In this document: positions 938-59,761 of the stretch, piece by piece | Numbering within the stretch: position 1 is the stretch's first letter | How the letters are laid out: each line of letters starts with the position of its first letter | Assembly: GCF_032191775.1 (NCBI RefSeq) | Contig: NZ_CP132507.1 | Coordinates: forward strand, 3,559,001 to 3,623,000 | Direction of reading: 5' to 3' | Source of the DNA: Rhodoferax mekongensis | GTDB taxonomy: Bacteria; Pseudomonadota; Gammaproteobacteria; Burkholderiales; Burkholderiaceae_C | Length of the DNA: 64,000 nt | Program-made: the position numbers and the translations under genes | Notes under the pieces: model-generated | What the model was told of the DNA's origin: nothing | Seen by the model: the letters and a program-made list of their open reading frames with translations, nothing else | Database searches by the model: none

Positions 938-3306
938 GCGCCACACCCTTCAACCCGTCTTTGACTCCCACCCTCTCCCCCGAGGTGGCCGCCGCCGTGC
1001 CCACTTCCCGTGGCCCGGCCGCCGGCGTCAATCAGTTCCATGAAAGCGCCGTGGCCCAGGTGGCCGGCGCGGTGCATTACATCGACGACCTGCCCGAGGT
1101 GCGCGGCACCCTGTATGCCGCGCCCATTCTTTCTACCCATGCGCATGGCAAGCTGCTGGGCGTGGACAGCACGGCAGCGCGCGCCATGCCCGGCGTGGTG
1201 GACGTGGTGCTGGCGGAAGACATTCCCGGCGACCCCATGCTGGCCGCCTTTGCCGGCGACGAGCCGGTGTTTGCCTTGGACACCGTGCAGTTCGTGGGCC
1301 AAGTGGTGGGCGTGGTGCTTGCCAAAACGGTGATGCAGGCCCGCCATGCCGCCCGCAAAGTGCAACTCAGGATCGAGCCCCTGCCGGCCATCCTGTCGGT
1401 GCAAGAGTCCATCCGCGCCAAGAGCTTTGTGCTGCCACCGGTCAACGTTCGGCGCGGTGATGCGGATGCGGCCCTGAAAAGCGCGCCCCACACCCTGCAC
1501 GGTACGCTGGAAGTCGGCGGGCAGGAGCACTTTTACCTGGAAGGCCAGATTGCCTATGTGCTGCCGCAAGAGCAGAACCAGTGGCTGGTCTACAGCAGCA
1601 CCCAGCACCCCGGCGAAGTGCAGCACTGGGTGAGCCACGCATTGGGCATCGACAACCACGCCGTCAAGGTGGAGTGCCGGCGCATGGGAGGCGGCTTCGG
1701 CGGCAAGGAAACGCAGGCCGGCCATCTGGCCGTGTGGGCGGCCATTGCGGCGGCCAAAAACCGCTGCGCCGTGAAGCTGCGGCTGGACCGGGACGACGAC
1801 TTCATGGTCACCGGCAAGCGCCACCCCTTTGCGTATGAATACAGCGTGGGCTTTGACGAAACCGGCCGCCTGACCGCCCTGAAACTGCAAATGGCAGTCA
1901 ACTGTGGCTTCAGCGCCGACCTGTCCGGCCCGGTGGCGGACCGCGCCATCTTCCACACCGACAACGCCTACTACCTGCAGGATGTGGACATCACCTCCTA
2001 CCGCTGCAAAACCAACACCCAGAGCCATACCGCCTTCCGTGGCTTCGGCGGCCCGCAGGGTGTGGTGCTGATTGAGGCGGTGATGGGCGACATTGCCCGT
2101 GCGCTCAAGCTGGACCCGCTGGACGTGCGCATGCGCAACCTCTACAGCGATGAGGCCATCCCCGGCACTGCGAACCGCCGCGACACCACCCACTACCAGA
2201 TGAAGGTGGAGGACAACATCCTCCAGCCCTTGCTATCAAAATTGGAGCTGTCCGCGCAGTATCGACGGCGGGTAGAGGCCATTTCGGCATGGAACCAGAC
2301 CAGCCCGGTACTCAAGCGCGGCATCGCCATTACGCCGGTCAAGTTCGGCATCAGCTTCACGGCCACACTGTTTAACCAAGCTGGCGCGCTGGTGCATGTG
2401 TACACCGACGGCAGCGTGCAGGTGAACCATGGCGGCGCCGAGATGGGCCAGGGCCTGAACACCAAGGTCGCCCAGATCGTGGCGGACGAATTGGGCATTC
2501 CCTTCACACGGGTGCTCAGCACTGCCAGTGACACCAGCAAAGTGCCCAACGCCTCCGCCACCGCGGCCAGTGCGGGTACCGACCTGAACGGCCGCGCAGC
2601 CCAGTTTGCCGCCCGCCATGTGCGCGACAACCTGGCCGCCTTTGTGGCCGGGCTCGATGGCTGCGGTGCAGGTGCCGTGCGCTTCAAGCATGGCGAAGTG
2701 TTCTCGCCCACCACCACCCGCAGCTTCGACGACGTGGTGAAAATGGCCTATGCCAACCGCATCCAGCTCTGGAGTGACGGCTTTTACCGTACGCCCAAGA
2801 TCCACTACGACAAGACGACGCTGACCGGCCGGCCTTTCTACTATTTCGCTTATGGTGCAGCGTGCACCGAAGTGGTGATCGACACCCTGACCGGCGAAAG
2901 CAAGGTGCTCAAAGTGGACATCCTCCACGACGTGGGCCGCAGCATCAACCCCGCTATCGACGTGGGGCAAATTGAAGGCGCCTTTGTGCAAGGCATGGGC
3001 TGGCTCACCACGGAGCAACTGGTCTGGAACGACAAGGGCTACCTCAGCACCCACGCGCCCAGCACCTACAAAATCCCCACCGCGGCGGATGTGCCCGAGC
3101 ACTTCAAGGTGGACCTTTGGCACGAACCCAACATTGAGGACAACGTGTTCGGCAGCAAGGCCGTGGGCGAGCCCCCTTTCATGCTGGGCATCAGCGTGTT
3201 TGAAGCCTTGCGCGATGCGGTAGCCCAAGCCAAGGGCCCGGGTGCCGCCGTGCAACTCACGGCGCCGGCCACGGCTGAGAATGTGTTGAAAGCGCTCAAG
3301 GACTGA
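934..3306 (+). CDS. xdhB: Xanthine dehydrogenase molybdopterin-binding large subunit
   Basis: Molybdenum-cofactor subunit of xanthine dehydrogenase, 790 residues, normal for the family. It pairs with the FAD/FeS subunit encoded immediately upstream. Visible cofactor and active-site motifs are GGGFGGKE near residues 252-259, AFRGFGGPQG near 366, NHGGAEMGQGLNTK around 500 and GEPPFMLG near 745, where the Glu is the expected catalytic base. Start ATG overlaps the xdhA stop. A dispersed repeat copy (2230-2280) is read through in frame around residues 433-449 without breaking the frame. The gene converges on the Crp-type regulator, with 17 bases between them and no clear terminator. Confidence 0.96.
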   Translation: MSATPFNPSLTPTLSPEVAAAVPTSRGPAAGVNQFHESAVAQVAGAVHYIDDLPEVRGTLYAAPILSTHAHGKLLGVDSTAARAMPGVVDVVLAEDIPGDPMLAAFAGDEPVFALDTVQFVGQVVGVVLAKTVMQARHAARKVQLRIEPLPAILSVQESIRAKSFVLPPVNVRRGDADAALKSAPHTLHGTLEVGGQEHFYLEGQIAYVLPQEQNQWLVYSSTQHPGEVQHWVSHALGIDNHAVKVECRRMGGGFGGKETQAGHLAVWAAIAAAKNRCAVKLRLDRDDDFMVTGKRHPFAYEYSVGFDETGRLTALKLQMAVNCGFSADLSGPVADRAIFHTDNAYYLQDVDITSYRCKTNTQSHTAFRGFGGPQGVVLIEAVMGDIARALKLDPLDVRMRNLYSDEAIPGTANRRDTTHYQMKVEDNILQPLLSKLELSAQYRRRVEAISAWNQTSPVLKRGIAITPVKFGISFTATLFNQAGALVHVYTDGSVQVNHGGAEMGQGLNTKVAQIVADELGIPFTRVLSTASDTSKVPNASATAASAGTDLNGRAAQFAARHVRDNLAAFVAGLDGCGAGAVRFKHGEVFSPTTTRSFDDVVKMAYANRIQLWSDGFYRTPKIHYDKTTLTGRPFYYFAYGAACTEVVIDTLTGESKVLKVDILHDVGRSINPAIDVGQIEGAFVQGMGWLTTEQLVWNDKGYLSTHAPSTYKIPTAADVPEHFKVDLWHEPNIEDNVFGSKAVGEPPFMLGISVFEALRDAVAQAKGPGAAVQLTAPATAENVLKALKD
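2230..2280 (+). repeat. Dispersed short repeat, copy A (inside xdhB)
   Basis: One of ten related segments in the window. It reads TTGCTATCAAAATTGGAGC then TGTCCGCGCAGTATCGACGG and ends AGAGGCC. It matches intergenic copy B at 7139-7189 in roughly 38 of 52 aligned bases. In xdhB it encodes part of LLSKLELSAQYRRRVEA; codons start at the second base of the shared GGAGCT. Confidence 0.65.
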
Positions 3307-3323
3307 GCGCCTACAGGGTGGAA

Positions 3324-3977
3324 CTACACCCCGGCCAGCGAACGCAAACCGCCGGGGTCGACCAGATTCACCGTGCGGCCTGAGCCGCTGATAAGGCTGC
3401 GCTCCCGCAGGTGGCGCAGCACGCGGGACAGTGTCTCGGGTGCGATGCCCAGTTGGGCCGCGATCAGGCGTTTGCGCTGTTGCAGCTGCACCGCGCAACC
3501 GCCTTTGTCGTTCGACTCGGCATGTTGCAGCAGCCATTCGGCACAACGCGCCTCGGCACCCTTGGCCAATCGGCTCACTGCCAGTTCGGTTTGCTCGCGG
3601 TGCGCCTGCGCCACGCCGGTGAGCATGGTGGTGCTGAGTTGGCGGTTGGCTGCCAGCGCGGCCTGAAACTCGGCCATGGGCACGCGGCGCAGCACCACAT
3701 CGGTCTGGGCGACCACGTCCATGGCGGCGGGCATTTCCAGCACGGCGGCTGTGGGGTCTACCCAGCCGGGCCCTTGCATCTGGCCGAGCTGGTGCTCCAG
3801 CAGTTCATCCCGGTTACCCGGGGTACCGCTGATGCCAAAGACCACATGCCCGCTTTCCAGATACCAGGCTGCGGCAGTCGCATCACCGCGCCGCAGCAAC
3901 ACGCTGCCAGCGACCCGGCGCTCGGGGTTGCTGTGGGTCAAAAGCGATTGAATTGCGGTAGGTACAGGTGCCAACAT
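3324..3977 (-). CDS. Crp/Fnr-family transcriptional regulator
   Basis: About 217 residues. An N-terminal cyclic-nucleotide-binding-like beta barrel (residues ~10-115) is followed by a long helix and a winged helix-turn-helix near the C terminus (IAAQLGIAPETLSRVLRHL, recognition helix ETLSRVLRHLRE). There is no Fnr-type N-terminal cysteine cluster, so iron-sulfur oxygen sensing is unlikely; the effector is unknown. An upstream GTG (3986) would add three residues; the ATG at 3977 is used here, and neither has a strong ribosome binding site. It faces xdhB end to end and lies upstream of the glycerate kinase gene on the opposite side. Its targets cannot be read from the sequence. Confidence 0.85.
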   Translation of the reverse strand: MLAPVPTAIQSLLTHSNPERRVAGSVLLRRGDATAAAWYLESGHVVFGISGTPGNRDELLEHQLGQMQGPGWVDPTAAVLEMPAAMDVVAQTDVVLRRVPMAEFQAALAANRQLSTTMLTGVAQAHREQTELAVSRLAKGAEARCAEWLLQHAESNDKGGCAVQLQQRKRLIAAQLGIAPETLSRVLRHLRERSLISGSGRTVNLVDPGGLRSLAGV

Positions 3978-4060
3978 GGACTTCACTGTGCCCGCCGCTG
4001 GCAGTCGCCGCCTTGAGACAGATCAAACTTTTGCGTGCCCGACCACAGGGCTTGCGCCGT

Positions 4061-5461
4061 TTACAACACCAGAATCGCCCGGAAGTCGTTCACGTTGGTG
4101 TGCGTGGGGCCGGTGGTGAACAGGTCCCCCAGCGGCTGGAAGAAGCCCACCGCGTCATTGCGGTCCAGGCAATCGGCCAAGGACACACCGGCGGCCTCAG
4201 CACGCGCCAAGGTGTCGGGGGTGACCAGCGCTCCGGCGTTGTCTGCCACGCCGTCAATGCCATCGGTGTCGGCGGCCAGCGCCCACACCTTGGGCTGCGC
4301 TTGCAGGCCCTGGGCCAGGCCCATGCAAAACTCCCCCGCGCGCCCGCCCCGACCTCTTAAAGCGCCTTCTCGACGCGGGCGCACAGTCACGGTGGTCTCG
4401 CCGCCGCTCAGAATCACACAAGGCTTGGCGAAGGGCTGCACGGCGGAAGCCGGTTTGAGCGAGGCGGTACGCGCCAAGGCGGCGTGCACCTTGCCCACTT
4501 CGCGGGACTCGCCTTCGAGCTCATCGCTGAGGATGTAGGCATGCAAGCCCATGCTGCGGGCCAGATCGGCAGCAGCTTCGAGCGACTGCTGGGGCGTGGC
4601 AATCAAATGCACTGAGTTGTTGGCAAATACGGCATCGCCGGGCTTGGGCGTTTCGAGCACACCGGCCTCCAGCGCTTTGAGCACGAAATCGGCCTCCAGT
4701 GCAGGTGCATCTTGCGCGAGGCGCTTCAAAATTGATAGCGCGTCGGCGCAGGTGCTGGGGTCCGGCACCGTCGGCCCACTGGCGATCACACTCGGGTCGT
4801 CGCCCGGCACATCGCTGATCAGTAGCGTCACCACCTTGGCGGGATAGCAGGCTGCGGCCAAGCGCCCGCCCTTGATGGCGGACAGATGCTTGCGCACGCA
4901 GTTCATCTCCTGAATGCTGGCGCCGCTCTCCAGCAAGAGCTTGTTGATGCGCTGCTTGAGCTCCAGGCTGATGCCGCCCTGCACGCCGTCTACCTCCCAC
5001 TGCGCGGGCAGCGTCAGCAAGGAGGATCCGCCACCGGAGATCAGGCAGATCACCAAATCGTCCTCGGTGAGCCCACGGGTCAAGGCCAGGATGCGCTGGG
5101 CTGCGGCCAAGCCGGCAGCGTCAGGCACCGGGTGGGCGGCTTCCACCACTTCTATGCGGGCTGGAGCTGCGTCTGCCAGTAGCGGCGGGGTGTGGTCGTA
5201 GCGGGTAACGACCAGACCCGACATTGGCAGGTCTTGGGGCCACAGCGCGTCCAGCGCATGGGCCATGGCGCCACCTGCTTTGCCTGCGCCCAGCACCAGC
5301 GTGCGCCCCTTGGGCGGCTCAGGCAGGTAGTGGTTGAGGGTATGCGCGGGTAGCGCCTGGCGCACTGCGGCCCAGTACAGCTGGCTCAGCAACTCGCGCG
5401 GGGCAATGTCAGAGAAATGCGCAGGGGCTTGGGGATGGGTTTCAGTACTTGGCATGTTCAT
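4061..5461 (-). CDS. Glycerate 2-kinase (MOFRL family)
   Basis: DUF4147 plus C-terminal MOFRL domain protein of 466 residues, the family that phosphorylates D-glycerate to 2-phosphoglycerate (names in use include gckA, ttuD and glxK-like; older records call it hydroxypyruvate reductase). Visible signatures are VLGAGKAGGAMAHALD near residue 60, LISGGGSSLL near 150, and the C-terminal CVILSGGETTVTV and DTDGIDG motifs typical of MOFRL. The longer frame to 5488 begins with TTG; ATG at 5461 or 5455 is more likely. In this context it would accept glycerate made by GarR from tartronate semialdehyde, linking the aldarate and possibly the purine/glyoxylate routes to central metabolism. A partial dispersed repeat (4703-4739) lies inside it. 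Confidence 0.9.
   Translation of the reverse strand: MNMPSTETHPQAPAHFSDIAPRELLSQLYWAAVRQALPAHTLNHYLPEPPKGRTLVLGAGKAGGAMAHALDALWPQDLPMSGLVVTRYDHTPPLLADAAPARIEVVEAAHPVPDAAGLAAAQRILALTRGLTEDDLVICLISGGGSSLLTLPAQWEVDGVQGGISLELKQRINKLLLESGASIQEMNCVRKHLSAIKGGRLAAACYPAKVVTLLISDVPGDDPSVIASGPTVPDPSTCADALSILKRLAQDAPALEADFVLKALEAGVLETPKPGDAVFANNSVHLIATPQQSLEAAADLARSMGLHAYILSDELEGESREVGKVHAALARTASLKPASAVQPFAKPCVILSGGETTVTVRPRREGALRGRGGRAGEFCMGLAQGLQAQPKVWALAADTDGIDGVADNAGALVTPDTLARAEAAGVSLADCLDRNDAVGFFQPLGDLFTTGPTHTNVNDFRAILVL
4703..4739 (-). repeat. Dispersed short repeat, copy K (degenerate, inside glycerate kinase)
   Basis: On the minus strand it reads GCTATCAATTTTGAAGCG followed by CCTCGCGCAAGATGCAC. 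It keeps the GCTATCAA and CGCGCA blocks of the repeat family but has lost the GGGCGCC tail, so it is the weakest copy listed. It is read in the same codon phase as copy A. Confidence 0.4.
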
Positions 5462-7101: not shown

Positions 7102-7138
7102 CCTCAACCGCCCAGCATCACACCTGAATGACGCGAGT

Positions 7139-7189
7139 TTGCTCCTGAAATGGGAGCTGCTCGCGCAATATCGACGGGCGCCAAAGGCC
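7139..7189 (+). repeat. Dispersed short repeat, copy B (intergenic)
   Basis: Reads TTGCTCCTGAAATGGGAGC then TGCTCGCGCAATATCGACGGGC and GCCAAAGGCC. It lies in the 98-base gap between the convergent deaminase and glucarate dehydratase genes, and is one of the best intergenic examples of the family. Confidence 0.75.
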
Positions 7190-7199
7190 AATTCAAGCC

Positions 7200-8552
7200 T
7201 CAACGCACGAGGCAGGGGCGCTTGGGGTCGAACTTCCAGCCGGGGATCAGGTACTGCATGGCCATCGCATCATTACGTGCGCCCAAACCGTGCTGCAAGT
7301 AGAGCTGGTGAGCTTTTTCCACTTCGACCATGTCCAGCTCGACACCCAAACCGGGCGTGGTGGGCACGGCAATTTGCCCGCCCACAATCTGCAGCGGGTC
7401 TTGGGTCAGGCGCTGGCCGTCCTGCCAGATCCAATGGGTATCAATGGCCGTTACCTTGCCCGGTGCAGCAGCCGCCACATGGGTGAACATGGCCAGCGAC
7501 ACGTCAAAGTGGTTGTTGGAATGCGAACCCCAAGTCAAGCCCCAGGTCTGGCAGACCTGCGCCACCCGCACGGAGCCCTGCATGGTCCAGAAATGCGGGT
7601 CAGCCAAGGGAATGTCCACGGACTGCAAGGCCAGCGAATGGGCCAGCTCGCGCCAGTCGGTGGCAATCATATTGGTGGCAGTGGGCAGGCCAGTGGCGCG
7701 GCGGAACTCGGCCACGACTTCCCGGCCGGAAAACACGCCTTCGGCCCCGCAGGGGTCTTCGGCATAGGCCATCACGCCATGCAAGTCGCGGCAAAGGCGC
7801 ACCGCGTCATTCAACAGCCATCCACCGTTCGGGTCCAGCGTGATGCGGGCTTGCGGGAAGCGGGCATGCAGGGCGCGGATGGCCTCCACTTCTTCTTCGC
7901 CGCGTAGCACACCGCCCTTGAGCTTGAAGTCCTGGAAGCCGTAGCGCGCAAAAGCGGCCTCGGCCAGACGCACCACGCCGTCTGCGTCCATGGCTTTTTC
8001 GTGGCGCAGGCGCTTCCAGTCATCGGCCTGATCCGGCTCGCTGAGGTAGGGCAAGTCAGTCTGCTGGCGGTCGCCCACATAGAACAGGTAGCCCAGCACC
8101 GCGACGCTGCTGCGTTGTTGGCCATCGCCCAGCAAGGCCGCCACCGGCACACCCAGGAATTTGCCCAGCAAATCGAGCAAGGCACTTTCCACGGCGGTCA
8201 CTGCGTGAATCGCCACGCGCAGGTCAAAGGTCTGCAGGCCACGGCCCTCGCTGTCGCGGGCGGCAAAGGCTTCGCGCATGCGGTTGAGGATGGCGTTGTA
8301 GTTGCCGACGGATTGACCCACTACCAAGGAGGCAGCATCTTCCAGCGTCTGGCGGATCTTCTCGCCGCCGGGCACTTCACCCACACCGGTGTTGCCGCTG
8401 CTGTCGGTCAGGATGACGATGTTGCGGGTAAAAAACGGCGCGTGGGCGCCACTCAGGTTCATCAGCATGCCGTCATGTCCGGCAACCGGAATGACGCGTA
8501 GCGCCGTCACCACAGGGGCGCCGCGCACAGAGGTAGTTTCAGACGGGGTCAT
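7200..8552 (-). CDS. gudD: Glucarate dehydratase (enolase superfamily)
   Basis: Dehydrates D-glucarate to 5-keto-4-deoxy-D-glucarate in the cytoplasm. The 450-residue product has the mandelate racemase/enolase fold markers of the glucarate dehydratase group: a KLK acid-base motif in DFKLKGG, metal ligands in LDPNGGW and YAEDPCG, and the His of [10 protein letters not shown]. The start is ATG 8552, preceded by TAAGGAG seven bases away; a TTG at 8558 is not needed. It is transcribed away from the GntR regulator gene, and a copy of the shared sequence GACATCATACAACT lies about 60 bases upstream. The product enters the GarL/GarR branch encoded further right. Confidence 0.93.
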
Positions 8553-20196: not shown

Positions 20197-21426
20197 TTAC
20201 TCGGTCTTTGCGCCTGCCTCAAACCAGCGCTTGATCACGTCGCGCTCCGTGTCGGTGATGTTGGTGGCGTTGTTCATGGGCATGATTTTGCTCACCACCA
20301 CTTGCTGGTAGATCGCTTGGGCGTGGCTGGCCACAGCCTCGGGGCTGTCCAGCCGCACGTTCTTCATTTGCACGGCAGCGCCGTGGCACATGTAGCAACG
20401 CTGCTCCAGCACGGGCTTTATCTCTTGATAGCCGATTGTGCTGCTGGCGCCCGTGGATTGTGCGGGAGCAGCTCCTGAATTCATAGCAGAAGTTTGCGGC
20501 GCAGGTTTCAACCACACCAGCATGCCGATGATGGCCAGCACGCCCACTGCCGCGTAGGGCCAGGGGTGGGCATTGCGACCGAGCTTGTAGCCATGCCGCA
20601 GCACAAAAAACTGGCGAATGGCGGCGCCCGCAGCCATCATCACGATCAGCACCAGCCAGTTGTGCGGGTGACTGTAGGTAAAGCTGTAATGGTTGCTCAA
20701 CATGGCAAACAACACCGGCAAGGTGAAATAGGTGTTGTGCACGCTACGCTGCTTGCCGCGCTTGCCGTGGATGGGGTCCACCGGCTCACCTGCTTTCATG
20801 CTCGCAATCATCTTGCGCTGGCCAGGGATGATCCAGAAGAACACGTTGGCACTCATGGCAGTGGCCATCATGGCGCCTACCAGCAGGAAGGCCGCCCGGC
20901 CAGCGAACCAGTGGCAGGCCAGAAAAGAGGCCACGCACACCAAGATCGCCACCAAAACGCCAACGATGGCATCGCCGTTCTTGCGCTGGCCAAAGATCCT
21001 GCAGATCGCGTCATAGGCCAGCCAGAACACGACGAGGAATGACAGGGCTACCGCAATGGCTGCATGCGGGTGCCACGCCATGACCGACTTGTCGATCAGG
21101 TAAGTGCCCGCGCTCCACAGGTAGGAGATGGTGAACAGCGAAAAGCCGGTAAGCCAAGTGCTGTAACTCTCCCAGTAAAACCAGTGCAAATTCCCCGGCA
21201 GTTTGGGGGGCGCGCCGGCAAATTTAACGGGGTGGTAGAAACCGCCTCCGTGCACTGCCCACAACTCGCCGCTGACGCCCTGCTTTTTCAGGTCTTCATC
21301 TTCCGGCGGGGTCAGGCTGCTGTCGAGAAACACAAAGTAAAACGACGATCCGATCCACGCAATGGCGGTGATGACGTGCACCCAACGCAGCAATAGGTTC
21401 GCCCAGTCCAGTACATAGCTTTCCAT
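20197..21426 (-). CDS. puuD: Membrane-bound urate hydroxylase PuuD with C-terminal cytochrome c domain
   Basis: Oxidises urate to 5-hydroxyisourate with electrons passing to a covalent heme c domain. The 409-residue product has about eight transmembrane segments of the PuuD/DUF989 type (start LDWANLLLRWVHVITAIAWIGSSFY) and a C-terminal class I cytochrome c domain with the heme-binding motif CYMCH near residue 344. An Ala/Ser-rich linker between membrane part and heme domain is encoded by dispersed repeat copy C. It is followed on the same strand by no gene and preceded by xdhC, 24 bases away, so xdhC-puuD is probably one transcript. Confidence 0.93.
   Translation of the reverse strand: MESYVLDWANLLLRWVHVITAIAWIGSSFYFVFLDSSLTPPEDEDLKKQGVSGELWAVHGGGFYHPVKFAGAPPKLPGNLHWFYWESYSTWLTGFSLFTISYLWSAGTYLIDKSVMAWHPHAAIAVALSFLVVFWLAYDAICRIFGQRKNGDAIVGVLVAILVCVASFLACHWFAGRAAFLLVGAMMATAMSANVFFWIIPGQRKMIASMKAGEPVDPIHGKRGKQRSVHNTYFTLPVLFAMLSNHYSFTYSHPHNWLVLIVMMAAGAAIRQFFVLRHGYKLGRNAHPWPYAAVGVLAIIGMLVWLKPAPQTSAMNSGAAPAQSTGASSTIGYQEIKPVLEQRCYMCHGAAVQMKNVRLDSPEAVASHAQAIYQQVVVSKIMPMNNATNITDTERDVIKRWFEAGAKTE
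20443..20488 (-). repeat. Dispersed short repeat, copy C (inside puuD)
   Basis: Minus strand TGCTATGAATTCAGGAGC, then TGCTCCCGCACAATCCACGG and GCGCCAGC. From AGCTGCT to the end it matches copy H in ureJ in 28 of 31 bases, although the two genes are unrelated. It encodes the linker before the cytochrome domain. Confidence 0.8.
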
Positions 21427-24951: not shown

Positions 24952-26760
24952 ATGAGCACACTGACTCTGGAACAACTCAACACCCTGCCATTGGCAGAAG
25001 CTGCAGAGCGGCTGGACGGCTTGTACGAGCACTCTCCGTGGATTGTGGAAACGGCTTTGCAGCAGCGGCCCTTTGTGTCACTCGCAGCCTTCAAATACCG
25101 CATGGTGCAAGTGGTGGCCGCGGCAGGGCGCGAGCCCCAGCTCGCGCTCTTGCGGGCCCACCCCGAGCTGGCCGGCAAGGCCATGGTGGACAACAGCCTC
25201 ACCGCCGAGAGCAGCAACGAGCAAAGCAAGGCCGGCCTGACGCACTGCACGCCCGCCGAGTTTGACAAGATTCAGCGCCTGAATGCGGAGTACAACGCGC
25301 GCTTCGGTTTCCCCTTCATCCTTGCAGTACGCGGCCCGCGCGGCACGGGCCTGTCCAAAGCGGAGATCATCGCCACGCTGGAGCGCCGCGTGCAAGGTCA
25401 CCCGGACTTTGAACTGGCCGAGTGCCTGCGCAATGTGCACCGCATTGCCGAAATCCGGCTGAACGACAAGTTTGGCTACACCCCGACCCAAGGCCATCAG
25501 GTGTGGGACTGGCAAGAGGCGCTGGCCCAACACACTGACGCAGGCTATGTGGGGACCGGCCAACTTACCGTGACCTACCTCACGGATGCGCACTTGGCCT
25601 GCGCCCGCCAGATCCAAGCCGATATGCTGGCTGCCGGCTGCGACAGCGCCACCATCGATGCGGTGGGCAATGTGGTGGGGCGCTATGAAAGTGATAGCTA
25701 CCCGCGCACATCCGACGAGCGCCAGAGCCCTATTTCATCCAAAACCCTACTCACCGGCAGTCACTATGACACCGTGCGCAACGGTGGCAAGTACGACGGC
25801 CGCTTGGGCATTTACGTGCCCCTGGCCTGCGTGCAAGCGCTCAAAGCGGAAGGCAAGCGCTTGCCCTACGCGCTGGAAGTGGTGGCCTTTGCCGAAGAGG
25901 AAGGCCAGCGCTACAAAGCCACCTTTCTGGGCTCGGGCGCACTCACCGGCGACTTTGACCCCGCTTGGCTGGACCAGACAGATGCCGACGGCATCAGCAT
26001 GCGCGACGCCATGGCGAAAGCGGGGTTGGACGTGAATGCGATTGGCGCCATCCGCCGCAACCCTGCCGATTACCAAGGCTTTGTGGAGGTCCATATCGAA
26101 CAAGGCCCGGTGCTCAACGCGCTGGACATTCCACTGGGCGTGGTCACCTCCATCAACGCCAGCGTGCGCTATGTAGGCGAGATCACCGGCATGGCCAGCC
26201 ACGCAGGCACCACGCCCATGGGCCAGCGGCGCGACGCCGCTGCTGCGGTGGCCGAGCTGATCTTGCTGGTCGAACACTGCGCCGCTCAAGATGGTGACTC
26301 GGTAGGCACCGTGGGTCAGCTGCAAGTGCCCAATGGCTCCATCAATGTGGTGCCCGGGCGTTGCACCTTCTCGCTGGATTTGCGCGCTCCGTCGGATGCG
26401 CAGCGCGATGCACTGGAGGCCAAAATACTCACCGGCCTGCGCCTGATCTGCGAGCGGCGTGGTCTGCACCACAGCCTCACCCGCACCATGCAAGCCAGCG
26501 CGGCGCCCAGCGCGTCCGCATGGCAGCAGCGTTGGGAAGCCGCAGTCACCGCCCTGGGCGTACCCCTGCACCGCATGCCCAGCGGCGCCGGGCACGACGC
26601 CATGAAGCTGCATACCATCCTGCCGCAAGCCATGCTGTTTGTGCGCGGCCTGAACTCCGGCATCAGCCACAACCCGCTGGAATCCACCACCAGCGACGAC
26701 ATGCAACTCGCCGTCGATGCTTTCCGCCATCTGCTGCACCAACTGGCCCACGCGGCCTGA
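24952..26760 (+). CDS. Fusion: OHCU decarboxylase (UraD) - allantoate amidohydrolase (AllC)
   Basis: A 602-residue two-domain enzyme. Residues 1-172 are UraD: catalytic His70 in LRAHPELAGKAM, SSNEQSKAGL near 87-96 and FILAVRG. Residues ~185-600 are an M20-type allantoate amidohydrolase with metal ligands in TGSHYDTVRNGGKYDG (His271, Asp282), EEEGQRY and HIEQGPVL. The fused reactions are not consecutive: OHCU to allantoin (UraD), PuuE step, then allantoate hydrolysis. Dispersed repeat copy D encodes an apparent insertion at residues ~244-262 just before the metal site. The start is ATG 24952; GTG 24949 would add one residue. Confidence 0.92.
   Translation: MSTLTLEQLNTLPLAEAAERLDGLYEHSPWIVETALQQRPFVSLAAFKYRMVQVVAAAGREPQLALLRAHPELAGKAMVDNSLTAESSNEQSKAGLTHCTPAEFDKIQRLNAEYNARFGFPFILAVRGPRGTGLSKAEIIATLERRVQGHPDFELAECLRNVHRIAEIRLNDKFGYTPTQGHQVWDWQEALAQHTDAGYVGTGQLTVTYLTDAHLACARQIQADMLAAGCDSATIDAVGNVVGRYESDSYPRTSDERQSPISSKTLLTGSHYDTVRNGGKYDGRLGIYVPLACVQALKAEGKRLPYALEVVAFAEEEGQRYKATFLGSGALTGDFDPAWLDQTDADGISMRDAMAKAGLDVNAIGAIRRNPADYQGFVEVHIEQGPVLNALDIPLGVVTSINASVRYVGEITGMASHAGTTPMGQRRDAAAAVAELILLVEHCAAQDGDSVGTVGQLQVPNGSINVVPGRCTFSLDLRAPSDAQRDALEAKILTGLRLICERRGLHHSLTRTMQASAAPSASAWQQRWEAAVTALGVPLHRMPSGAGHDAMKLHTILPQAMLFVRGLNSGISHNPLESTTSDDMQLAVDAFRHLLHQLAHAA
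25682..25730 (+). repeat. Dispersed short repeat, copy D (inside uraD-allC)
   Basis: Reads GCTATGAAAGTGATAGCTAC then CCGCGCACATCCGACGAGC and GCCAGAGCC. It encodes RYESDSYPRTSDERQS within the AllC part, where family members are shorter, so it looks like an in-frame insertion. Its codon phase differs from copies A and C. Confidence 0.7.
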
Positions 26761-38298: not shown

Positions 38299-39875
38299 GC
38301 TTCTGCGCTCCGGCCCTTCATGGCAAAGATGCCTTGCGGACGCTTCTGGATAAAGACGATGATGAAAACCAGCACCGCGATCTTGGCCAGCACCGCACCG
38401 GTCCAGCCCTCGAGGAACTTGTTGAGAATGCCCAGGCCCATGGCCGCATACACGGTTCCGGCCAGCTGGCCCACACCGCCCAGTACCACCACCATGAAGG
38501 AGTCCACGATGTAGCCTTGGCCCAGGTCAGGCCCCACGTTGCCCACCTGGCTCAAAGCGCAGCCGGCCAAACCGGCAATGCCGGAACCCAGTGCAAAGGC
38601 GTAGGTGTCGATGCGGGCCGTGTTCACACCCATGCAGCTCGCAATCGGGCGGTTTTGTGTGACGCCGCGCACAAAAAGCCCCAAGCGTGTTTTCTCAATC
38701 AGGAACCACACGCCCGCCAGCACAGCCACTGCAAAGGCGACGATGATCAATCGGTTGTAGGGCAGCGAGAGGTTGCCCAGCAGCTGTACACCTCCACTCA
38801 TCCAACTCGGGTTTTCCACGCCGACGTTTTGCGCCCCGAACAGGGTGCGCACCAACTGCATCAGCATCAGGCTGATACCCCAGGTCGCCAGCAGAGTCTC
38901 CAGCGGACGCCCGTACAGGAAACGGATGACGCTGCGTTCCAAGGCAGCACCCACCAGCGCCGAGGTCATGAACGCCACCGGCACTGCGGCCAGCAAATAC
39001 CAGTCGAAAGCGCCGGGCAGGTACTTCTGAAACAGCACCTGAACCACGTAAGTGGCGTAGGCGCCTATCATCATGAGCTCGCCGTGGGCCATGTTGATCA
39101 CGCCCATCAAACCATAGGTGATGGCCAAACCCAGTGCCACCAACAGCAGGATGGAACCGAGGCTTACACCACTAAAGATGGCACCCAAGCGGTCTCCCCA
39201 TGCGAGGCGGGACTCGACAGTGCCCAAGCTCTTTTGCAATGCGGTTTTCACATTGGCATCGGTCTCGACTTGCAGGCGCTCGACCAGCAACGTTTTGGTG
39301 GCGGCCTGCGTGCTTTCGCCCAGTTGCGCAGCGGCCTCGAGACGCTTTACCGGGTCTTCACTGCCCAACATCGCTGCCGCACGCAACAACTGCAATTTCT
39401 CTTTCAAGTCAGGGACAGTTTCGATAGCGAGCGCCTTTTCGAGAAGCGCAAGCTTGCCTGCGTCCACCTGCCCCCCCAGGGTCTTGATTGCATCGCGCCG
39501 CACCGCGACGTCGGGCGACAGCAGCTTGACCGCAGCCAGCGCGGTATCCAGCTCTCCGCGCATGCGGTTGTTGTTCATGACGTCTTCGGCGGTATCGGGC
39601 ACAGCGACTTCCGCTTGGGTGACCGGGTCCACACCCTTGCCGTCCAAAACCATCACAGGCACTTCGCCCACGAGCTTGACGGCATCGTCTGAGAGGGCCT
39701 GGATGAAACGCACCGTGCGTTCATCGGCGTTCTCCACCGCTTTTTGCAATGCCGCCACGCGGGCATCGCTCTCGCCGGATGCCATGGCTTTTGCCTCTTC
39801 AGCGCTCAGCGCATATGCGCGAGCAGCTATCAAAAGCATAGCAAACATCAGCCATTGAAATAGTCTTTTTGGCAT
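38295..39875 (-). CDS. urtB: Urea ABC transporter permease UrtB
   Basis: A 526-residue protein: signal peptide, a ~210-residue periplasmic helical (HEAT-like) domain characteristic of UrtB, then a LivH-type permease (LGLAITYGLMGVINMAHGELMMIGAYATY). The start is ATG 39875 with GGAGAG upstream, not the TTG at 39905. Dispersed repeat copy E encodes the core and end of the signal peptide (AMLLIAARAYALS). A hairpin separates it from urtA. Confidence 0.94.
   Translation of the reverse strand: MPKRLFQWLMFAMLLIAARAYALSAEEAKAMASGESDARVAALQKAVENADERTVRFIQALSDDAVKLVGEVPVMVLDGKGVDPVTQAEVAVPDTAEDVMNNNRMRGELDTALAAVKLLSPDVAVRRDAIKTLGGQVDAGKLALLEKALAIETVPDLKEKLQLLRAAAMLGSEDPVKRLEAAAQLGESTQAATKTLLVERLQVETDANVKTALQKSLGTVESRLAWGDRLGAIFSGVSLGSILLLVALGLAITYGLMGVINMAHGELMMIGAYATYVVQVLFQKYLPGAFDWYLLAAVPVAFMTSALVGAALERSVIRFLYGRPLETLLATWGISLMLMQLVRTLFGAQNVGVENPSWMSGGVQLLGNLSLPYNRLIIVAFAVAVLAGVWFLIEKTRLGLFVRGVTQNRPIASCMGVNTARIDTYAFALGSGIAGLAGCALSQVGNVGPDLGQGYIVDSFMVVVLGGVGQLAGTVYAAMGLGILNKFLEGWTGAVLAKIAVLVFIIVFIQKRPQGIFAMKGRSAEA
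39802..39843 (-). repeat. Dispersed short repeat, copy E (urtB signal peptide)
   Basis: Minus strand TGCTATGCTTTTGATAGC then TGCTCGCGCATATGCGCTGA. It keeps the TGCTAT...ATAGCTGCTCGCGCA core and encodes the hydrophobic part of the UrtB signal, in the same codon phase as copy H in the ureJ signal. Confidence 0.7.
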
Positions 39876-44180: not shown

Positions 44181-44207
44181 TTAAGGTAGAGGTCTTAGCG
44201 CATAGAC

Positions 44208-44246
44208 GCTATATTTTTCATAGCGACCTGCGCATATTCCATGAGC
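44208..44246 (+). repeat. Dispersed short repeat, copy F (spans the fecR-like start codon)
   Basis: GCTATATTTTTCATAGCGAC then CTGCGCATATTCCATGAGC. The ATG of the following gene (44241) is inside the element, so the repeat supplies the 5' leader and first codons. Confidence 0.6.
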
Positions 44247-44897
44247 ACCAGACGCCAATTTATATCAACATCCGTAGGGCTTGCAAGCATTGCCGGTTTG
44301 GCCGATGCACTGGCCATGGGCCAGAAACCGTTACAAAGTGGAATACGCCGTATCAAAGGCGATGTGCGATTGAATGGCAGCCCCGCCAGGGTGGACCAAG
44401 CCGTGCTGCCGGGCGACACCATTGCCACTGGAGCCAACAGCGAAGTGCTGTATGTGATGGCCAACAACGCCTACCTCATGCGCGACAACAGCGTGATCCA
44501 GTTTGTGCAGGATGGTGCGGTCGGCGTCTTGCGCTTGATTACGGGCAAAGTGCTGGCGGTGTTCGGGCCCGGCCCCAAGCGGCTCGAGACCCCGGCAGCC
44601 ACCATAGGCATCCGCGGCACTGCTTGCTATATGGAAACGATGGAGGCCAAGCTCTACTTTTGCCTGTGCTACGGCACTGCCGACATCCAGCCCCTGGCCG
44701 ACGCCACCCAAGCACGCACCCTGACCACGCACTACCACGACGCGCCACTGTACATAGGTCGCGAAGCTGGTAGGCACCTGATGGAACCTGCACCGGTCAT
44801 CAATCACCGGGACTTGGAACTCATCATGCTGGAAGAAGCCGTAGGCCGCCAGCCACCGTTCATGCAGCGCGCCAACCGGGACTCCAACGGTTACTGA
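44241..44897 (+). CDS. FecR-domain protein, exported
   Basis: A 218-residue protein. The N terminus STRRQFISTSVGLASIAGL fits a twin-arginine signal. The body is a FecR domain (GDVRLNGSPARVDQAVLPGD, VMANNAYLMRDNSVIQF, ETPAATIGIRGTACYME). Unlike FecR sigma regulators it has no N-terminal anti-sigma helix, so it is more like the stand-alone periplasmic FecR proteins. Three Cys (ACYME, FCLCYG) could form a disulfide or bind metal. Follows the DUF5666 gene by 60 bases. Confidence 0.8.
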   Translation: MSTRRQFISTSVGLASIAGLADALAMGQKPLQSGIRRIKGDVRLNGSPARVDQAVLPGDTIATGANSEVLYVMANNAYLMRDNSVIQFVQDGAVGVLRLITGKVLAVFGPGPKRLETPAATIGIRGTACYMETMEAKLYFCLCYGTADIQPLADATQARTLTTHYHDAPLYIGREAGRHLMEPAPVINHRDLELIMLEEAVGRQPPFMQRANRDSNGY

Positions 44898-46936: not shown

Positions 46937-46962
46937 GAAAAGGCAAACTCCGGATAAAGAAC

Positions 46963-47010
46963 GCTATAAAAACAATAGCTGCTCGCGCACAGCAATCGTG
47001 CGCCAAAGCC
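46963..47010 (+). repeat. Dispersed short repeat, copy G (intergenic)
   Basis: GCTATAAAAACAATAGCTGC then TCGCGCACAGCAATCGTGC and GCCAAAGCC, upstream of the orphan ATPase. Sits in the 148-base gap together with the YceI terminator. Confidence 0.75.
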
Positions 47011-47021
47011 TGATTTTGCAT

Positions 47022-47048
47022 AAAAAAAGGCCAGCCTTCCGGCCGGCC
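47022..47048 (-). terminator. Rho-independent terminator after the YceI/b561 operon
   Basis: Minus strand GGCCGGCC/GGCTGGCC stem (one G-U pair) with a GGAA loop and seven Ts, located 36 bases after the stop of the yceI-like gene at 47085. Confidence 0.88.
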
Positions 47049-47084: not shown

Positions 47085-47657
47085 TTACTGCTTGATAGCT
47101 TCGAGTGCGATGGTGATGGTCACGTCGTCGCCCACGTACGGTGCAAATTTGCCGGCGTTGAACTCTGAGCGCTTGATGGTGGTGGTGGCTTCCGCACCGA
47201 TCACATCCTTCTTGTTCATGGGATGGGTAGTGGACACGAAGTTCACGATCTTCAGGGTCACAGGCTTGGTCACGCCCTTGATGGTCAGGTTGCCGTCCAC
47301 AGAAGCAGGCTTGTCACCGTCAAACACCACTTTGGTGGACTTGAAAGTGGCGGTAGGGAACTTGGCGGTGTCGAGGAAGTCTTCGCCCTGGATGTGGCCG
47401 TTGAATGCGGCGAAGCCGGTGTCCACAGCCTTCATGTCAATCACGACATCCACAGCGCCTGTCTTGGCAGCCTTGTCAAAAGTCACGGTGCCGGTGGTGT
47501 TGTTGAAACGGCTTTGCTGGGTGGACAAACCGAAGTGGTTGTACGAAAAACGGGGGAAAGTATGCGAAGGGTCCAGGTTGTAAGTCGCGGACTGGGCGCT
47601 GGCAGCACCGGCGAAAGCGGACAGTGCCAAAGCGGCAGCGATGAGGGAAGTACGCAT
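47085..47657 (-). CDS. YceI-family periplasmic lipid-binding protein (1)
   Basis: A 190-residue protein with signal peptide (AGAASAQ) and a lipocalin-like YceI barrel (TYNLDPSHTFPRFSYNHFG, GHIQGEDFLDTAKFPTATFKST, GNLTIKGVTKPVTL). Family members bind polyisoprenoid or amide lipids. It follows a second yceI-like gene and a cytochrome b561 gene on the same strand, a common grouping. Confidence 0.92.
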   Translation of the reverse strand: MRTSLIAAALALSAFAGAASAQSATYNLDPSHTFPRFSYNHFGLSTQQSRFNNTTGTVTFDKAAKTGAVDVVIDMKAVDTGFAAFNGHIQGEDFLDTAKFPTATFKSTKVVFDGDKPASVDGNLTIKGVTKPVTLKIVNFVSTTHPMNKKDVIGAEATTTIKRSEFNAGKFAPYVGDDVTITIALEAIKQ

Positions 47658-54556: not shown

Positions 54557-55159
54557 ATGCGTTACCCATCGAAATCCGCTCTTCTTTTCATAGCTGCTGG
54601 CGCACTATCCACGGGCGCCAGCGCCCATATGGGCACTGATCTGCATAGCCATGGCAGCTTCATGACCGGCCTGCTGCACCCGCTGGGTGGACTGGACCAC
54701 TTGCTGGCCATGCTGGCCGTCGGTGTCTGGAGCGCAGTGTCTGCCCGCCGTGCCGGGCCTGCCTTGTTGTGGGGGCCGCTCGCCTTCGCCAACATGCTCG
54801 TGCTGGGCGCCCTGCTGGGCCTCCGAGGCATGGGCGGCGCCGTGGTGGAGCCCATGGTGGCTGCGTCCGTGCTGGCGCTGGGCCTCTTGGTACTCACACG
54901 CCAAGGCATGAATGCCGCAGCCTCCATGGTGTTGGTGGGTGGCTTTGCTGTGTTCCACGGACTGGCCCACGGGGCGGAGTTAGCAGCTACGGGTGACGCA
55001 GTTGCGCCAGTGGCCGGCATGTTTGTGACCACCATCGCGCTGCATCTTTCAGGCGTGGCACTGGGCTGGTCCTTGCGTGCTGCCAATGTGTGGGCAACCC
55101 GCGCCACCGGCGCTGCCGTGGCTACCTCGGGCCTCGCCCTGTTGATGCAATTGGCGTGA
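54557..55159 (+). CDS. ureJ: HupE/UreJ-family membrane protein, putative nickel permease
   Basis: A 200-residue membrane protein with signal peptide and six hydrophobic segments. The family motif with potential nickel-binding His is seen ([31 protein letters not shown]). TTTTGGAGATTCC precedes ATG 54557. The signal peptide ([17 protein letters not shown]) is largely encoded by dispersed repeat copy H. Location inside the urease operon supports nickel supply. Confidence 0.9.
54584..54622 (+). repeat. Dispersed short repeat, copy H (ureJ signal peptide)
   Basis: CTTTTCATAGCTGCTGGCGC then ACTATCCACGGGCGCCAGC. It matches the puuD copy C in 28 of 31 bases from AGCTGCT onward and forms the core and cleavage region of the UreJ signal peptide. 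Confidence 0.78.
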
Positions 55160-55478: not shown

Positions 55479-57197
55479 ATGGCAACGATTGGACGCCGCG
55501 CCTACGCGGAAATCTTTGGCCCCACCACTGGCGACCGCGTGCGCCTGGCAGATACCGGCCTGATCATTGAGGTCGAAAAAGACTACACCCTGGCCGCTGG
55601 CAGCTATGGCGAAGAGGTGAAGTTCGGCGGCGGCAAAACCATCCGCGACGGCATGGCGCAAAGCCAGCGAACCAGAGCGGAAGGTGCAGTGGACTGCGTG
55701 CTGACCAACGCCCTCATCCTGGACCACTGGGGCATCGTCAAGGCCGACATCGGCCTCAAGGGCGGGCGCATTGTGGCCATTGGCAAAGCCGGCAACCCTG
55801 ACACCCAGCCGGGTGTGGACATCATCATCGGGCCGGGCACCGAAATCATCAGCTGCGAGGGCAACATCGTCACCGCGGGCGGCATTGACTGCCATATTCA
55901 CTTCATCTGCCCGCAGCAGATTGAAGAAGCACTCTCCAGCGGCGTGACCACCATGATGGGTGGCGGCACGGGCCCTGCCACCGGCACCTTTGCCACCACT
56001 TGCACGCCAGGCCCCTGGAATATTGAGCGCATGCTGCAAGCGGCCGATGCCTTCCCCATGAACCTGGGCTATTTTGGTAAGGGCAATGCCAGCCTGCCCG
56101 GCGCACTGCATGAGCAGATCAACGCCGGGGTGATCGGCCTCAAGCTGCATGAAGACTGGGGCAGCACGCCCGCTGCCATCAGCAACTGTCTGGATGTGGC
56201 TGACGAAACCGAGATTCAGGTAGCCCTGCACTCGGACACGCTCAACGAATCCGGCTTTGTGGAGAACACCATTGAAGCGACCAAGGGCCGTGGCCTGTGC
56301 GCCTTCCACACTGAAGGCGCGGGCGGCGGACATGCGCCGGACATCTTGAAGGTCGTGGGCCAGGCGAACTTTCTGCCCAGCTCTACCAACCCCACCATGC
56401 CTTACACCCAGAACACACTGGACGAGCATGTGGACATGCTGATGGTCTGCCACCACCTGGACGCGGGCATTGCGGAAGACCTGGCCTTTGCCGAGAGCCG
56501 CATCCGCAAGGAAACCATTGCGGCGGAAGACATCCTGCACGACATGGGCGCGATCTCCATGATGAGCAGCGACAGCCAGGCCATGGGCCGCGTGGGCGAA
56601 GTCATCATCCGCACTTGGCAGACGGCCGACAAGATGAAGTCGCAGCGTGGCAGCTTGCCCGAAGACAGCAGCCGCAACGACAATTTCCGCGCCAAGCGTT
56701 ACGTCGCCAAGTACACCATCAACCCTGCGATCGCGCACGGCATCAGCCATGAAGTCGGCAGCATCGAAGTCGGCAAGTGGGCCGACCTGGTAATCTACAA
56801 ACCCGCTTTCTTCGGCGTCAAACCCGCGCTGATATTGAAGGGCGGCTTCATCGCCCACGCCGCCATGGGCGACCCGAATGCGTCCATCCCCACCCCGCAG
56901 CCGGTGCACTACCGCCCGATGTTCGGCAGCTTTGGTGGCGCGCTGCACCGGGGCTCGCTGACCTTTGTGTCCCAATCGGGCTTGAACGCAGGCATCAAGG
57001 AACGCTTCGGCCTGGCCAAAAACGTGTCAGCGGTGAAAAACATCCGTGGCATACGCAAACAGCATATGGTGCACAACAGCTACTTGCCCACCATGGAAAT
57101 CGACGCGCAAACCTACACTGTGCGCGCCGACGGCCAACTGCTGACGTGTGAGCCGGCAGTCAAGCTACCCATGGCACAGCGCTACTTTTTGTTCTGA
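55479..57197 (+). CDS. ureC: Urease alpha (catalytic) subunit
   Basis: The 572-residue nickel subunit. Ligand motifs are intact: HIHFICPQQ (two Ni-binding His), KLHEDWG with the Lys that is carbamylated, [21 protein letters not shown] and the flexible-flap His in MVCHHLD; Asp ligand in [14 protein letters not shown] 55479 is the start; the TTG at 55473 merely adds two residues. Expected to be active if matured by UreDEFG. Confidence 0.98.
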
Positions 57198-58297: not shown

Positions 58298-58314
58298 GCA
58301 AGGCCCCTTCGAGT

Positions 58315-58330: not shown

Positions 58331-58364
58331 TTAACAGTCACTCATTCACCCTTCAAGCTGTCTC

Positions 58365-59030
58365 ATGCTCCAAGTCTCCAAATGCATTCCCCAAGGCCAA
58401 GGCCTGGCACCGGTCCTCGTCAAGCGCGCCGTCACCGTCGAGCTGGATTGGGACGTGCGCCAGAAAAGCCGTTTTGATGCCACCGACAGCCAAGGCCGCC
58501 AGATCGGCGTGTTTCTGCCCCGTGGCACCGTCGTGCGCGGTGGCGACGTGCTGGTGGCCGAAGACGGCTCGCTCATCGTCGCCAAAGCCGCACCGCAAGC
58601 GGTGCTGAAGATCACCCACTGCCGCAATCACGGCACACCCTTCGACCTGATCCGTGCGGCCTACCACCTTGGCAATCGCCATGTACCCATCGAGTTGCAG
58701 CCCGACCACCTGAAGATTGAGCCTGACCACGTGCTGGCCGACATGCTGCGCGCCATGCACCTGATCGTGAATGCGGTGGACGAGGCGTTTGAGCCCGAGA
58801 ACGGTGCCTACGCCACCGGTGGACACCACGGCGGCCATCACCACGGACACGATCACCACGACCATGGCCATGACCACGGGCATTCCCACGCCGGCCACAG
58901 CCATGATCACGCACCCCAGCAGGCAGCGACTTTGCGTGGCATTCCGGTGGCAGTGCAAGCCAAACCGCATGTGCATGGCCCGGACTGCAACCATGGTCAC
59001 GACCATGGCCACCACCACGGCGACCAATAA
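58365..59030 (+). CDS. ureE: Urease accessory protein UreE, histidine-rich
   Basis: Nickel metallochaperone of 221 residues. N-terminal peptide-binding domain (KRAVTVELDWDVRQKSRFDA, GTVVRGGDVLVAEDG) and metal domain (HLGNRHVPIE with the conserved metal His) are complete. From about residue 150 it has a long His tail (GGHHGGHHHGHDHHDHGHDH and more) and a second His/Cys cluster at the C terminus (HGPDCNHGHDHGHHHGD), longer than in many UreE, suggesting strong nickel storage. Confidence 0.95.
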   Translation: MLQVSKCIPQGQGLAPVLVKRAVTVELDWDVRQKSRFDATDSQGRQIGVFLPRGTVVRGGDVLVAEDGSLIVAKAAPQAVLKITHCRNHGTPFDLIRAAYHLGNRHVPIELQPDHLKIEPDHVLADMLRAMHLIVNAVDEAFEPENGAYATGGHHGGHHHGHDHHDHGHDHGHSHAGHSHDHAPQQAATLRGIPVAVQAKPHVHGPDCNHGHDHGHHHGDQ

Positions 59031-59042
59031 ACAAGCAACACC

Positions 59043-59720
59043 ATGCTCGACAGCAGCCTGATGCAGCTCATGTGGCTGGCCTCCCCGGCCTTGCCGATTG
59101 GCGGCTTTTCATACTCCGAATGCCTGGAGGCGGCCGTGGATACTGCGCGAGCCGCTACAGAAAGCGAAGCATCCGTGTGGCTGGTCGACCAACTGCACAT
59201 GACGCTGGCCCGCTCGGAGCTGCCAGCGGTGGCCCAAGCCATTTCCGCCTGGCGCGCAGACGACCAGCCCCGCATTGCCGAGCTGAATGCCTGGGTGCTG
59301 CAGACCCGCGAGAGCGCAGAGCTGCGGGCGCAAACCGAGCAAATGGGCAAGAGCCTGCTGGAATGGCTGAAGAACCACACCACGGCCACGCCCGCACAAA
59401 TCGCCCTGCTCGCCGCGCAGGAACCCACCTACCCCATCGCATTCGCGCTGGCCGCAAGCGCTACACAGGCCCCAGTGCGCGAATGCCTGCTGGCCTTTGC
59501 CTTCGGCTGGGCCGAGAACATGATGCAGGCCGCCATCAAAGCCGTGCCGCTGGGCCAGAGTGCCGGGCAGCGCATCCTGTCCGCGCTGACCGCCGAGATT
59601 CCTTTCGCTGTCGATTACGCCCTGAGCGTGAGCGACGACACCCGCCAAGCCTTCAGCCCCATGCTGGCCATCCTGAGCAGCCAGCATGAGGTGCAGTATT
59701 CAAGGCTTTTCCGCTCCTAG
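59043..59720 (+). CDS. ureF: Urease accessory protein UreF
   Basis: A 225-residue helical GTPase-regulating accessory protein ([54 protein letters not shown]). Starts 12 bases after ureE. Its final codons and stop lie in dispersed repeat copy I. Confidence 0.95.
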
Positions 59721-59761
59721 CGCCCGTTGAATATGCGTAAGAAGCTCACTTTTTGATAGCA
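59713..59761 (-). repeat. Dispersed short repeat, copy I (ureF-ureG junction)
   Basis: Minus strand TGCTATCAAAAAGTGAGC then TTCTTACGCATATTCAACGG and GCGCTAGGAGC. It fills the ureF-ureG gap and supplies the ureF stop codon. Confidence 0.75.

Follow-up and report, generated by a model that had tools for sequence, protein, structure and literature searches.

A genome-wide repeat of about 66 bp in Rhodoferax as a possible DNA self-recognition signal

A dispersed repeat family in the window and across the genome

The stretch of DNA analyzed here, called the window, comprises 64,000 nucleotides of Rhodoferax mekongensis (positions 3559001-3623000 of the closed 3,889,336 bp genome) and holds, among other genes, xdhB, a glycerate kinase gene, the urate oxidase gene puuD, a uraD-allC fusion gene, an urtB-like permease gene, ureJ and ureF, in and between which lie copies of a dispersed repeat (Table 1). 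We describe this repeat family, show that most of the tested in-gene copies arose or vanished by base replacement without full insertion, and tentatively read the repeats as a signal by which DNA of these bacteria may be recognized. Genes were called with a simple codon-usage finder and their names were assigned from sequence.

The original prediction had joined ten segments of the window into one family of 40-50 bp repeats that resemble each other as DNA and not as a protein motif. We built a profile (R1) and a 70-column ungapped position weight matrix (PWM) from 30 high-scoring copies of the own genome, picked with one pattern. R1 recovered all ten segments with E values of 8e-18 to 2.3e-4 and found an eleventh copy, antisense in ureF, at 59129-59173 (E 2.1e-6); the window sites (n=11) score 28.6-75.6 with the 70-column matrix. 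The agreement of 28 of 31 bases between the puuD and ureJ copies was confirmed (31 nt, 90%), as was the similarity at the DNA level, and the family proved to be genome-wide. The repeat is thus real but longer than predicted, about 62-66 bp, with the consensus TTGCTATnAATTTnATAGCTGCTCGCGCAnATTCCACGGGCGCCAGnGGCCnATTTnnnnnnnAA, which can be written in blocks as TTGCTATnAATTTnATAGC-TGCTCGCGCA-nATTCC-ACGGGCGCCAG-nGGCC-nATTT-n7-AA. Its information content is ~57 bits over 70 columns (96 copies), and its GC-rich blocks are separated by AT tracts spaced roughly one or two helical turns apart; among the periods tried for these tracts, 22-24 was the strongest and 11 the strongest short period, with no significance attached to either.

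In 400 kb of the own genome (20 evenly spaced 20 kb stretches), the 70-column matrix located 57 sites of at least 10 bits, a clear excess over the 0 sites in the same 400 kb reversed and the 0 in one second-order Markov shuffle (Markov-2), and extrapolation from this sample gives ~550 copies per genome. The empty controls make a chance origin unlikely even for the low-scoring in-gene copies. With a covariance-model (CM) program, this 400 kb sample yielded 56 copies and the window 11, and the pattern AGCTGCTCGCGCANNATNNACGGGCGCCAG, when as many as 3 mismatches were allowed, had 129 matches in the genome (64 forward, 65 reverse) and 0 when written backwards. On the matrix scale strong copies dominate, with 50 of the 57 sites at 30 bits or more and few decayed ones; the spread is wider in covariance-model bits, where 19 of 67 copies fall below 30. 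The ungapped matrix is blind to copies with internal indels, and all counts of weak or variant copies, like the per-genome match counts below, are lower bounds.

Table 1. Copies of the repeat in the window, with their scores in the 70-column matrix (PWM) or the covariance model (CM)
Copy	Window position	Strand	Score and remarks
In the gene preceding xdhB (named xdhA here), truncated by the left window edge so that the right part remains	1..43 (genome 3558974-3559043)	+	PWM 43.2 on joined own sequence
Inside xdhB, sense, encodes PLLSKLELSAQYRRRVEAISAWN	2226..2295	+	PWM 37.8; ungapped in 30/30 orthologs examined
Inside glycerate kinase gene (DUF4147 and MOFRL, Pfam), sense	4676..4745	-	PWM 28.6
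Between the 3' ends of two convergent genes, abutting the end of 7200-8552	7135..7204	+	PWM 68.4
Sense copy in the linker encoded by puuD (urate oxidase)	20424..20493	-	PWM 75.6; same site in several genera
In the uraD-allC fusion gene	25676..25745	+	PWM 53.4; segment 11 residues longer than in 4/4 motif-less orthologs
At the start of the urtB-like permease gene (Pfam), only left half strong	39779..39848	-	PWM 33.5; CM 29.1 over 39813-39846
Upstream of, or at the start of, a FecR-like gene	44202..44271	+	PWM 47.7
Intergenic, downstream of 47085-47657 (-), adjoining stem-like sequence	46957..47026	+	PWM 56.9
Encoding the signal-peptide-like start of the HupE/UreJ gene (Pfam; 54569-54641)	54572..54641	+	PWM 67.9; also in G120, G152
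Inside ureF, antisense, new relative to the original prediction	59107..59176	-	PWM 29.8; also in G120, G152
Spanning the ureF 3' end and the gap before the next gene	59697..59766	-	PWM 51.3

Several copies of the window can be followed in congeneric genomes, denoted here by G numbers. The copy between the two convergent genes is also present in G120, G152, G147, and G138, and in a diverged form in G144; the region of the glycerate kinase copy is 12 nt longer in the own sequence than in G136, G146, G153, and G123.

Placement, reading frames and codon use

The placement of the repeats was surveyed in 624 kb of own sequence, 85% of which is coding according to the gene finder. Of the 96 sites, 37 lie inside genes, 29 overlap a gene end, and 30 are intergenic. 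Among the non-internal sites, 58 of 59 could be typed, with 17 at convergent (8.6 kb), 36 at tandem (56.0 kb), and 5 at divergent (15.7 kb) gene pairs, so that convergent gene ends are favored (chi-square P about 1e-5); this typing counts sites that overlap gene ends, with gap lengths not extended for them. When one 264 kb region was compared with two congeners, its core DNA (223.6 kb) held 43 sites and its accessory DNA (40.4 kb) held 1 (binomial P 0.006), and the spacing of the sites in this region was more even than random (coefficient of variation 0.74, P 0.025).

This placement bears on a rival explanation, by which the repeat would be bound by a protein that shapes the chromosome, either a nucleoid-associated protein or gyrase. 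Such a protein would wrap or bend ~66 bp, and selection for chromosome organization would keep the copies, above all at gene 3' ends. AT tracts near the helical phase would suit a DNA-wrapping protein too, and the enrichment at convergent gene ends, the occurrence on both strands, the fairly even spacing and the location in core DNA point the same way, as do two results described below, namely stems without covariation and a competence gene that does not track the motif. Such a site, however, would need appreciable selection on each of ~550 copies, including those that impose unusual codons on conserved genes, and the turnover between close species seen in xdhB (below) would be unexpected for a structural site. 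We regard this explanation as unlikely, though it is the strongest of the rivals.

The in-gene copies follow preferred reading frames. The original prediction described three codon phases, which is right for the window, and from them proposed an element that tolerates translation in any frame. In the 624 kb, one sense phase accounts for 14 of 19 copies and one antisense phase for 17 of 18, so the phases are not freely chosen; given this strong bias, the claim of any-frame tolerance is too strong. Translation in the main sense frame gives about A-x-N-S-x-A-A-x-A-x-S-T-G-A, which occurs as a linker in puuD. A related reading of the motif reads as a signal-peptide-like start in the ureJ and urtB-like genes; in the latter, the segment 39779-39870, with the upstream ATG as start codon, would read as a signal peptide. 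In a separate locus (L070, 6459-8283), two tandem PhzF-like genes each hold an antisense copy at about the same residue position, and the copy therefore probably predates the duplication or arose twice.

The codons within genes lie close to the best fit to the motif that the protein allows. The codons of own xdhB score 37.8, compared with -22 (sd 9) for random synonymous codons and 44.4 for the best possible choice, and across the 37 in-gene sites the scores stand 3.9-7.6 z units above synonymous resampling, with a median of 0.79 of the attainable gain. Since these sites were selected for matching, the value of 0.79 shows how closely codons follow the motif and not how often they do.

Comparison with orthologs in related genomes

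For the in-gene copies we followed the procedure by which the uptake signal sequences (USS) of Pasteurellaceae were shown not to be insertions (PMC1626085). The 27 top-scoring of 36 usable in-gene sites (37 in total) were compared with four motif-less congeners (G123, G153, G146, and G136), which yielded orthologs for 26 sites and none for cobU. The best matrix score in any motif-less ortholog was -17. Length was kept, with a net difference of at most 2 residues in every ortholog, in 15 of the 26 motif-bearing genes; these include a MocR-like gene with a single ortholog and a 9-residue gap just right of the motif. In 10 of the 26 genes (e.g. nadK, nadE, guaD, ileS, and xdhB), gap residues were absent inside the motif segment altogether. 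Two genes showed a near-full-length, insertion-like difference, a waaA-like gene (3 of 4 orthologs) and the L082 gene (3 of 3), in which the motif-less versions are 14-21 residues shorter. The remaining nine genes were intermediate: motif-less orthologs are shorter by 11 residues in allC, by 5 in pgi, by 9 in two of four for puuD, and by a few residues in three others, and are longer at an acs-like site (by 5 in some) and in xdhA and a phzF-like gene. Outside this set, an altronate-dehydratase-like (UxaA) gene in the window (15137-16654) has an 18-residue (54 bp) motif segment in G152 and G144, with matrix scores of 35.4 and 30.9; it is missing in the own genome, G120, G147, and G136. Insertion thus does occur at some loci, namely the UxaA-like, waaA-like and L082 genes.

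A second comparison concerned xdhB. In a set made of the best 30 loci among the 60 Rhodoferax genomes with a match, all 30 sequences aligned without a gap at the site, 15 with the motif (7.5 to 37.8) and 15 without it (-30.1 to -105.5), and the protein pattern P-L-[LIM]-x-x-L-x-x-[ST]-[SA]-x-Y-R was kept in XdhB with or without the motif. On the tree of the protein minus the motif, the distribution requires at least 6 state changes, 3 of which are forced by well-supported branches. The genomes of the 15 carriers each have at least 24 motif matches genome-wide; of the 15 non-carriers, 11 have 0 or 1, and the other four have at least 6 (G165), 7 (G159), 22 (G171), and 79 (G122). A laxer recount gave at least 33 matches in G171, 63 in G166, 149 in G122, and 150 in G162. 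Between the own xdhB and that of G171, identity is 0.66 over the motif against 0.86-0.90 in the two 70-bp windows on either side, and between G166 and G122 it is 0.56 against 0.76-0.97 in the flanks. Because this dip is confined to the motif, change there has been faster than in the flanks, and we rejected ordinary drift as the whole source of the motif-less XdhB sequences. Either recombination or a release of codon selection could account for the faster change.

The linker copy in puuD, by comparison, occupies an identical position in puuD orthologs from several genera, where 34 of the 80 loci had an R1 match (E up to 0.05). All 31 rows examined (own and 30 of the 34, with the four weakest left out) have GCT as the first codon of the copy, although GCT makes up 8.8% of alanine codons, and GCT also stands in 12 of 13 rows that R1 missed and that have a similar-looking peptide. 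Agreement at fourfold sites is 74% within the element and 62% and 55% in its flanks, the first value being biased upward because R1 selected the rows.

Sites are mostly common to related species. Among the 44 site clusters of the 264 kb region, a copy was detected at 32 of 33 alignable clusters in G152 and at 29 of 37 in G120; of the eight G120 clusters without a detected copy, at least 2 still show a diverged copy when aligned, and a large deletion accounts for one. These counts leave 9 sites of the relatives unplaced and omit a few weak matches. Aligned blocks longer than 3 kb are about 72-92% identical.

These comparisons mostly do not support the mobile or copied element that the original prediction had implied. 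A second rival keeps that idea, with a small element of the Rickettsia palindromic element (RPE) or repetitive extragenic palindromic (REP)/miniature inverted-repeat transposable element (MITE) kind that was inserted long ago and then inherited. The in-frame differences at the UxaA-like, waaA-like, and L082 genes and the puuD site common to several genera speak for such an element, and transposase genes are somewhat more frequent in motif-positive genomes (below). On the other hand, 15 of 26 genes lack an insertion, XdhB is ungapped in 30 of 30, few copies are decayed on the matrix scale, and accessory DNA holds just 1 of the 44 sites in the region compared. We therefore rejected a mobile element as the main origin, given the ungapped orthologs, and retained it for some loci; as an account of the family as a whole it is improbable.

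Range and dialects

R1 matches (E up to 1e-5) occurred in 30 of 120 genera of the GTDB family, with one genome each, and in 33 of 61 Rhodoferax genomes. In the order, 3 of 250 genomes had a match (E up to 1e-6), all from the own family, of which 7 genomes were among those listed. Genomes of one genus mostly have many copies or are without signal, with few intermediates. In 40 copies from three other genera, fixed columns depart from the Rhodoferax consensus, e.g. GCTTGATGGAC replacing GCATATTCCAC, as dialects would; R1, with which these copies were selected, is biased toward the Rhodoferax form.

BLAST against plasmid and phage collections gave no match, a point against the mobile-element rival that is weak because the same search recalls only 16-17 of the 96 own sites. 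A degenerate pattern, which recalls only 4 of the 96, had 1 match in a viral collection (contig IMGVR_UViG_2508501005).

Transposase, RNA structure and competence genes

A gene with the Y1_Tnp domain, of the REP-associated tyrosine transposase (RAYT) type, was present in 27 of 30 motif-positive and 61 of 90 motif-negative genomes of the family (Fisher P 0.018), and is widespread overall (88 of 120). The single Y1_Tnp-like gene of the own genome (L398, genome 1452570-1452809) carries a single weak copy (16.3 bits), located at the 3' end of the gene; no strong copy lies within 4 kb of it, and the next copies are 4-5 kb away. A domain this widespread and mildly associated, without strong flanking copies, was rejected as the driver, and the 4 kb result, like the stems without covariation described next, also counts against the mobile-element rival.

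We also considered that the repeat might be transcribed, as a structured RNA or a terminator that was copied from gene to gene, which would agree with the short potential stems in some copies and with the many copies at gene 3' ends. However, every one of 500 shuffles equalled or exceeded the pairing of hairpin 1, which is thus paired less often than shuffled sequence, the pairing of hairpin 2 did not rise above the shuffled level (444 of 500), and no covariation was found in the stems. Folding z was -0.9 to -2.2 for the five copies folded with DNA parameters, Rfam gave no match at the motif sites at gathering thresholds, and 18 of the 37 in-gene copies are antisense. A structured RNA was rejected on the Rfam and covariation results, and this explanation is very improbable.

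The comEC gene of the own genome (L399, genome 3129955-3132459) holds two copies of the repeat (68.9 and 47.5 bits), and that of G152 also holds two (43.5 and 52.3), which is suggestive of a link to DNA uptake and no more than that. The presence of ComEC itself was rejected as a marker of the motif because it does not follow the motif (next section).

Interpretation and comparison with known systems

Taken together, the repeats are most likely a long, sequence-specific DNA self-recognition signal that drive or selection maintains in the core chromosome and that is analogous to an uptake signal; we favor this reading tentatively, with a confidence just short of even. A putative reader of the signal would give an advantage to DNA that carries the motif, and recombination and selection would then keep the signal. 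The most likely reader would be the natural-transformation machinery, in which case the motif would work like the DNA uptake sequences (DUS) of Neisseriaceae and the USS of Pasteurellaceae. DUS occur in a 12-nt form as well, and their receptor is ComP. More tentatively still, Rhodoferax and related genera may have a third, independent bacterial uptake-signal system, a ~66-bp helically phased sequence that rewrites the codons of conserved core genes throughout the genome and has been lost whole in some lineages. On this possibility, a length of ~66 bp would imply that the reader is not a single pilin tip but wraps around or tracks along several DNA turns.

The comparison with the known signals is favorable in several respects. 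Uptake sequences are not insertions, lie in the core genome in permissive places, form dialects, and have flanking AT segments (PMC1626085, PMC2397512, PMC3630211), and the same kinds of test have been applied to USS and DUS (PMC1626085, PMC2397512). Like USS, the Rhodoferax motif has many dispersed copies in genes and gaps, an origin by substitution, AT segments about a helical turn apart, and subclade variants (PMC1626085); like DUS, it has dialects and a core-genome location, and its sites face near-matches or unrelated sequence in relatives (PMC3630211, PMC2397512). Of the features that mark uptake signals, we thus found copies on both strands far above chance, core concentration, dialects, and, for the majority of tested copies, substitution origin. 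There are also differences: USS consist of a 9 bp core and two AT segments whereas the Rhodoferax motif spans ~66 bp with several GC blocks, DUS are short, with a 10-nt form (PMC2397512), and the motif is 5-6 times longer; an uptake bias has been shown for USS and would be a prediction for the Rhodoferax motif.

Several findings weigh against the reading as a self-recognition signal. Uptake signals have a short core of about 9-12 bp, and the motif, at ~66 bp and ~57 bits, is 5-7 times the length of the DUS or USS cores, which together with ComEC is the main misfit. A ComEC (PF03772) match is present in 55 of 61 Rhodoferax genomes, including motif-less ones, and four of the six genomes without it are carriers (G130, G138, G144, and G148), among them G144, whose assembly is 99% complete. 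For these two reasons, the ComEC distribution and the length, we did not file the motif as a DUS or USS. G122 is rich in the motif, yet its XdhB lacks it. The insertions at the UxaA-like, waaA-like, and L082 genes and the nine intermediate genes also belong here. Constraint in intergenic copies is modest: divergence from G120 and G152 is 16% and 10% at high-information columns and 27% and 24% at low-information columns, compared with 22% and 18% in flanking noncoding DNA and 30% and 28% at third codon positions. Finally, polarized changes at high-information columns ran toward and away from the consensus in ratios of 4:40 in G120 and 6:16 in G152; the own ratio of 17:17 is biased because the sites were found in the own genome.

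Two other known repeat types share features with the motif. RPE are short repeats read in frame inside protein genes, as the Rhodoferax motif is, and they are insertions with hairpins. Most tested Rhodoferax copies, unlike RPE, are not insertions, with the three loci named above as exceptions, and their stems show no covariation. With REP/REPIN elements and RAYT, the motif shares hundreds of short dispersed copies and a Y1_Tnp gene in the genome; it differs in that it has no conserved hairpin, 37 of 96 copies lie in genes, most of those tested arose in place, and strong copies do not flank the Y1_Tnp gene.

Among the listed matches in the open-access literature on dispersed repeats of the family, REP elements in Burkholderiales, repeats in Acidovorax and Polaromonas, repeats or competence in Rhodoferax, uptake sequences in Comamonadaceae, and pieces of the motif itself, with subscription papers outside this coverage, we found no account of the motif. 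Self-recognition uptake signals have so far been detailed for two families, Neisseriaceae and Pasteurellaceae, and a long signal in a third, environmental group, if true, would allow tests of the spread of such signals, of their readers, and of their cost to the proteins they run through. If a chromosome-structuring protein were the reader instead, coding sequence would have been reshaped across the genome by a very large binding site. In both cases, ~550 sites per genome that resemble inserted repeats would be explained mostly without a transposon, and constraint at the DNA level should be considered when linkers and signal peptides of these bacteria are annotated.

Other feature of the window

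Apart from the repeats, Rfam has a match to 5_ureB_sRNA (93 bits) at 55640-55929, on the opposite strand of the urease gene 55479-57197, which may only mirror the conservation of the urease coding sequence.

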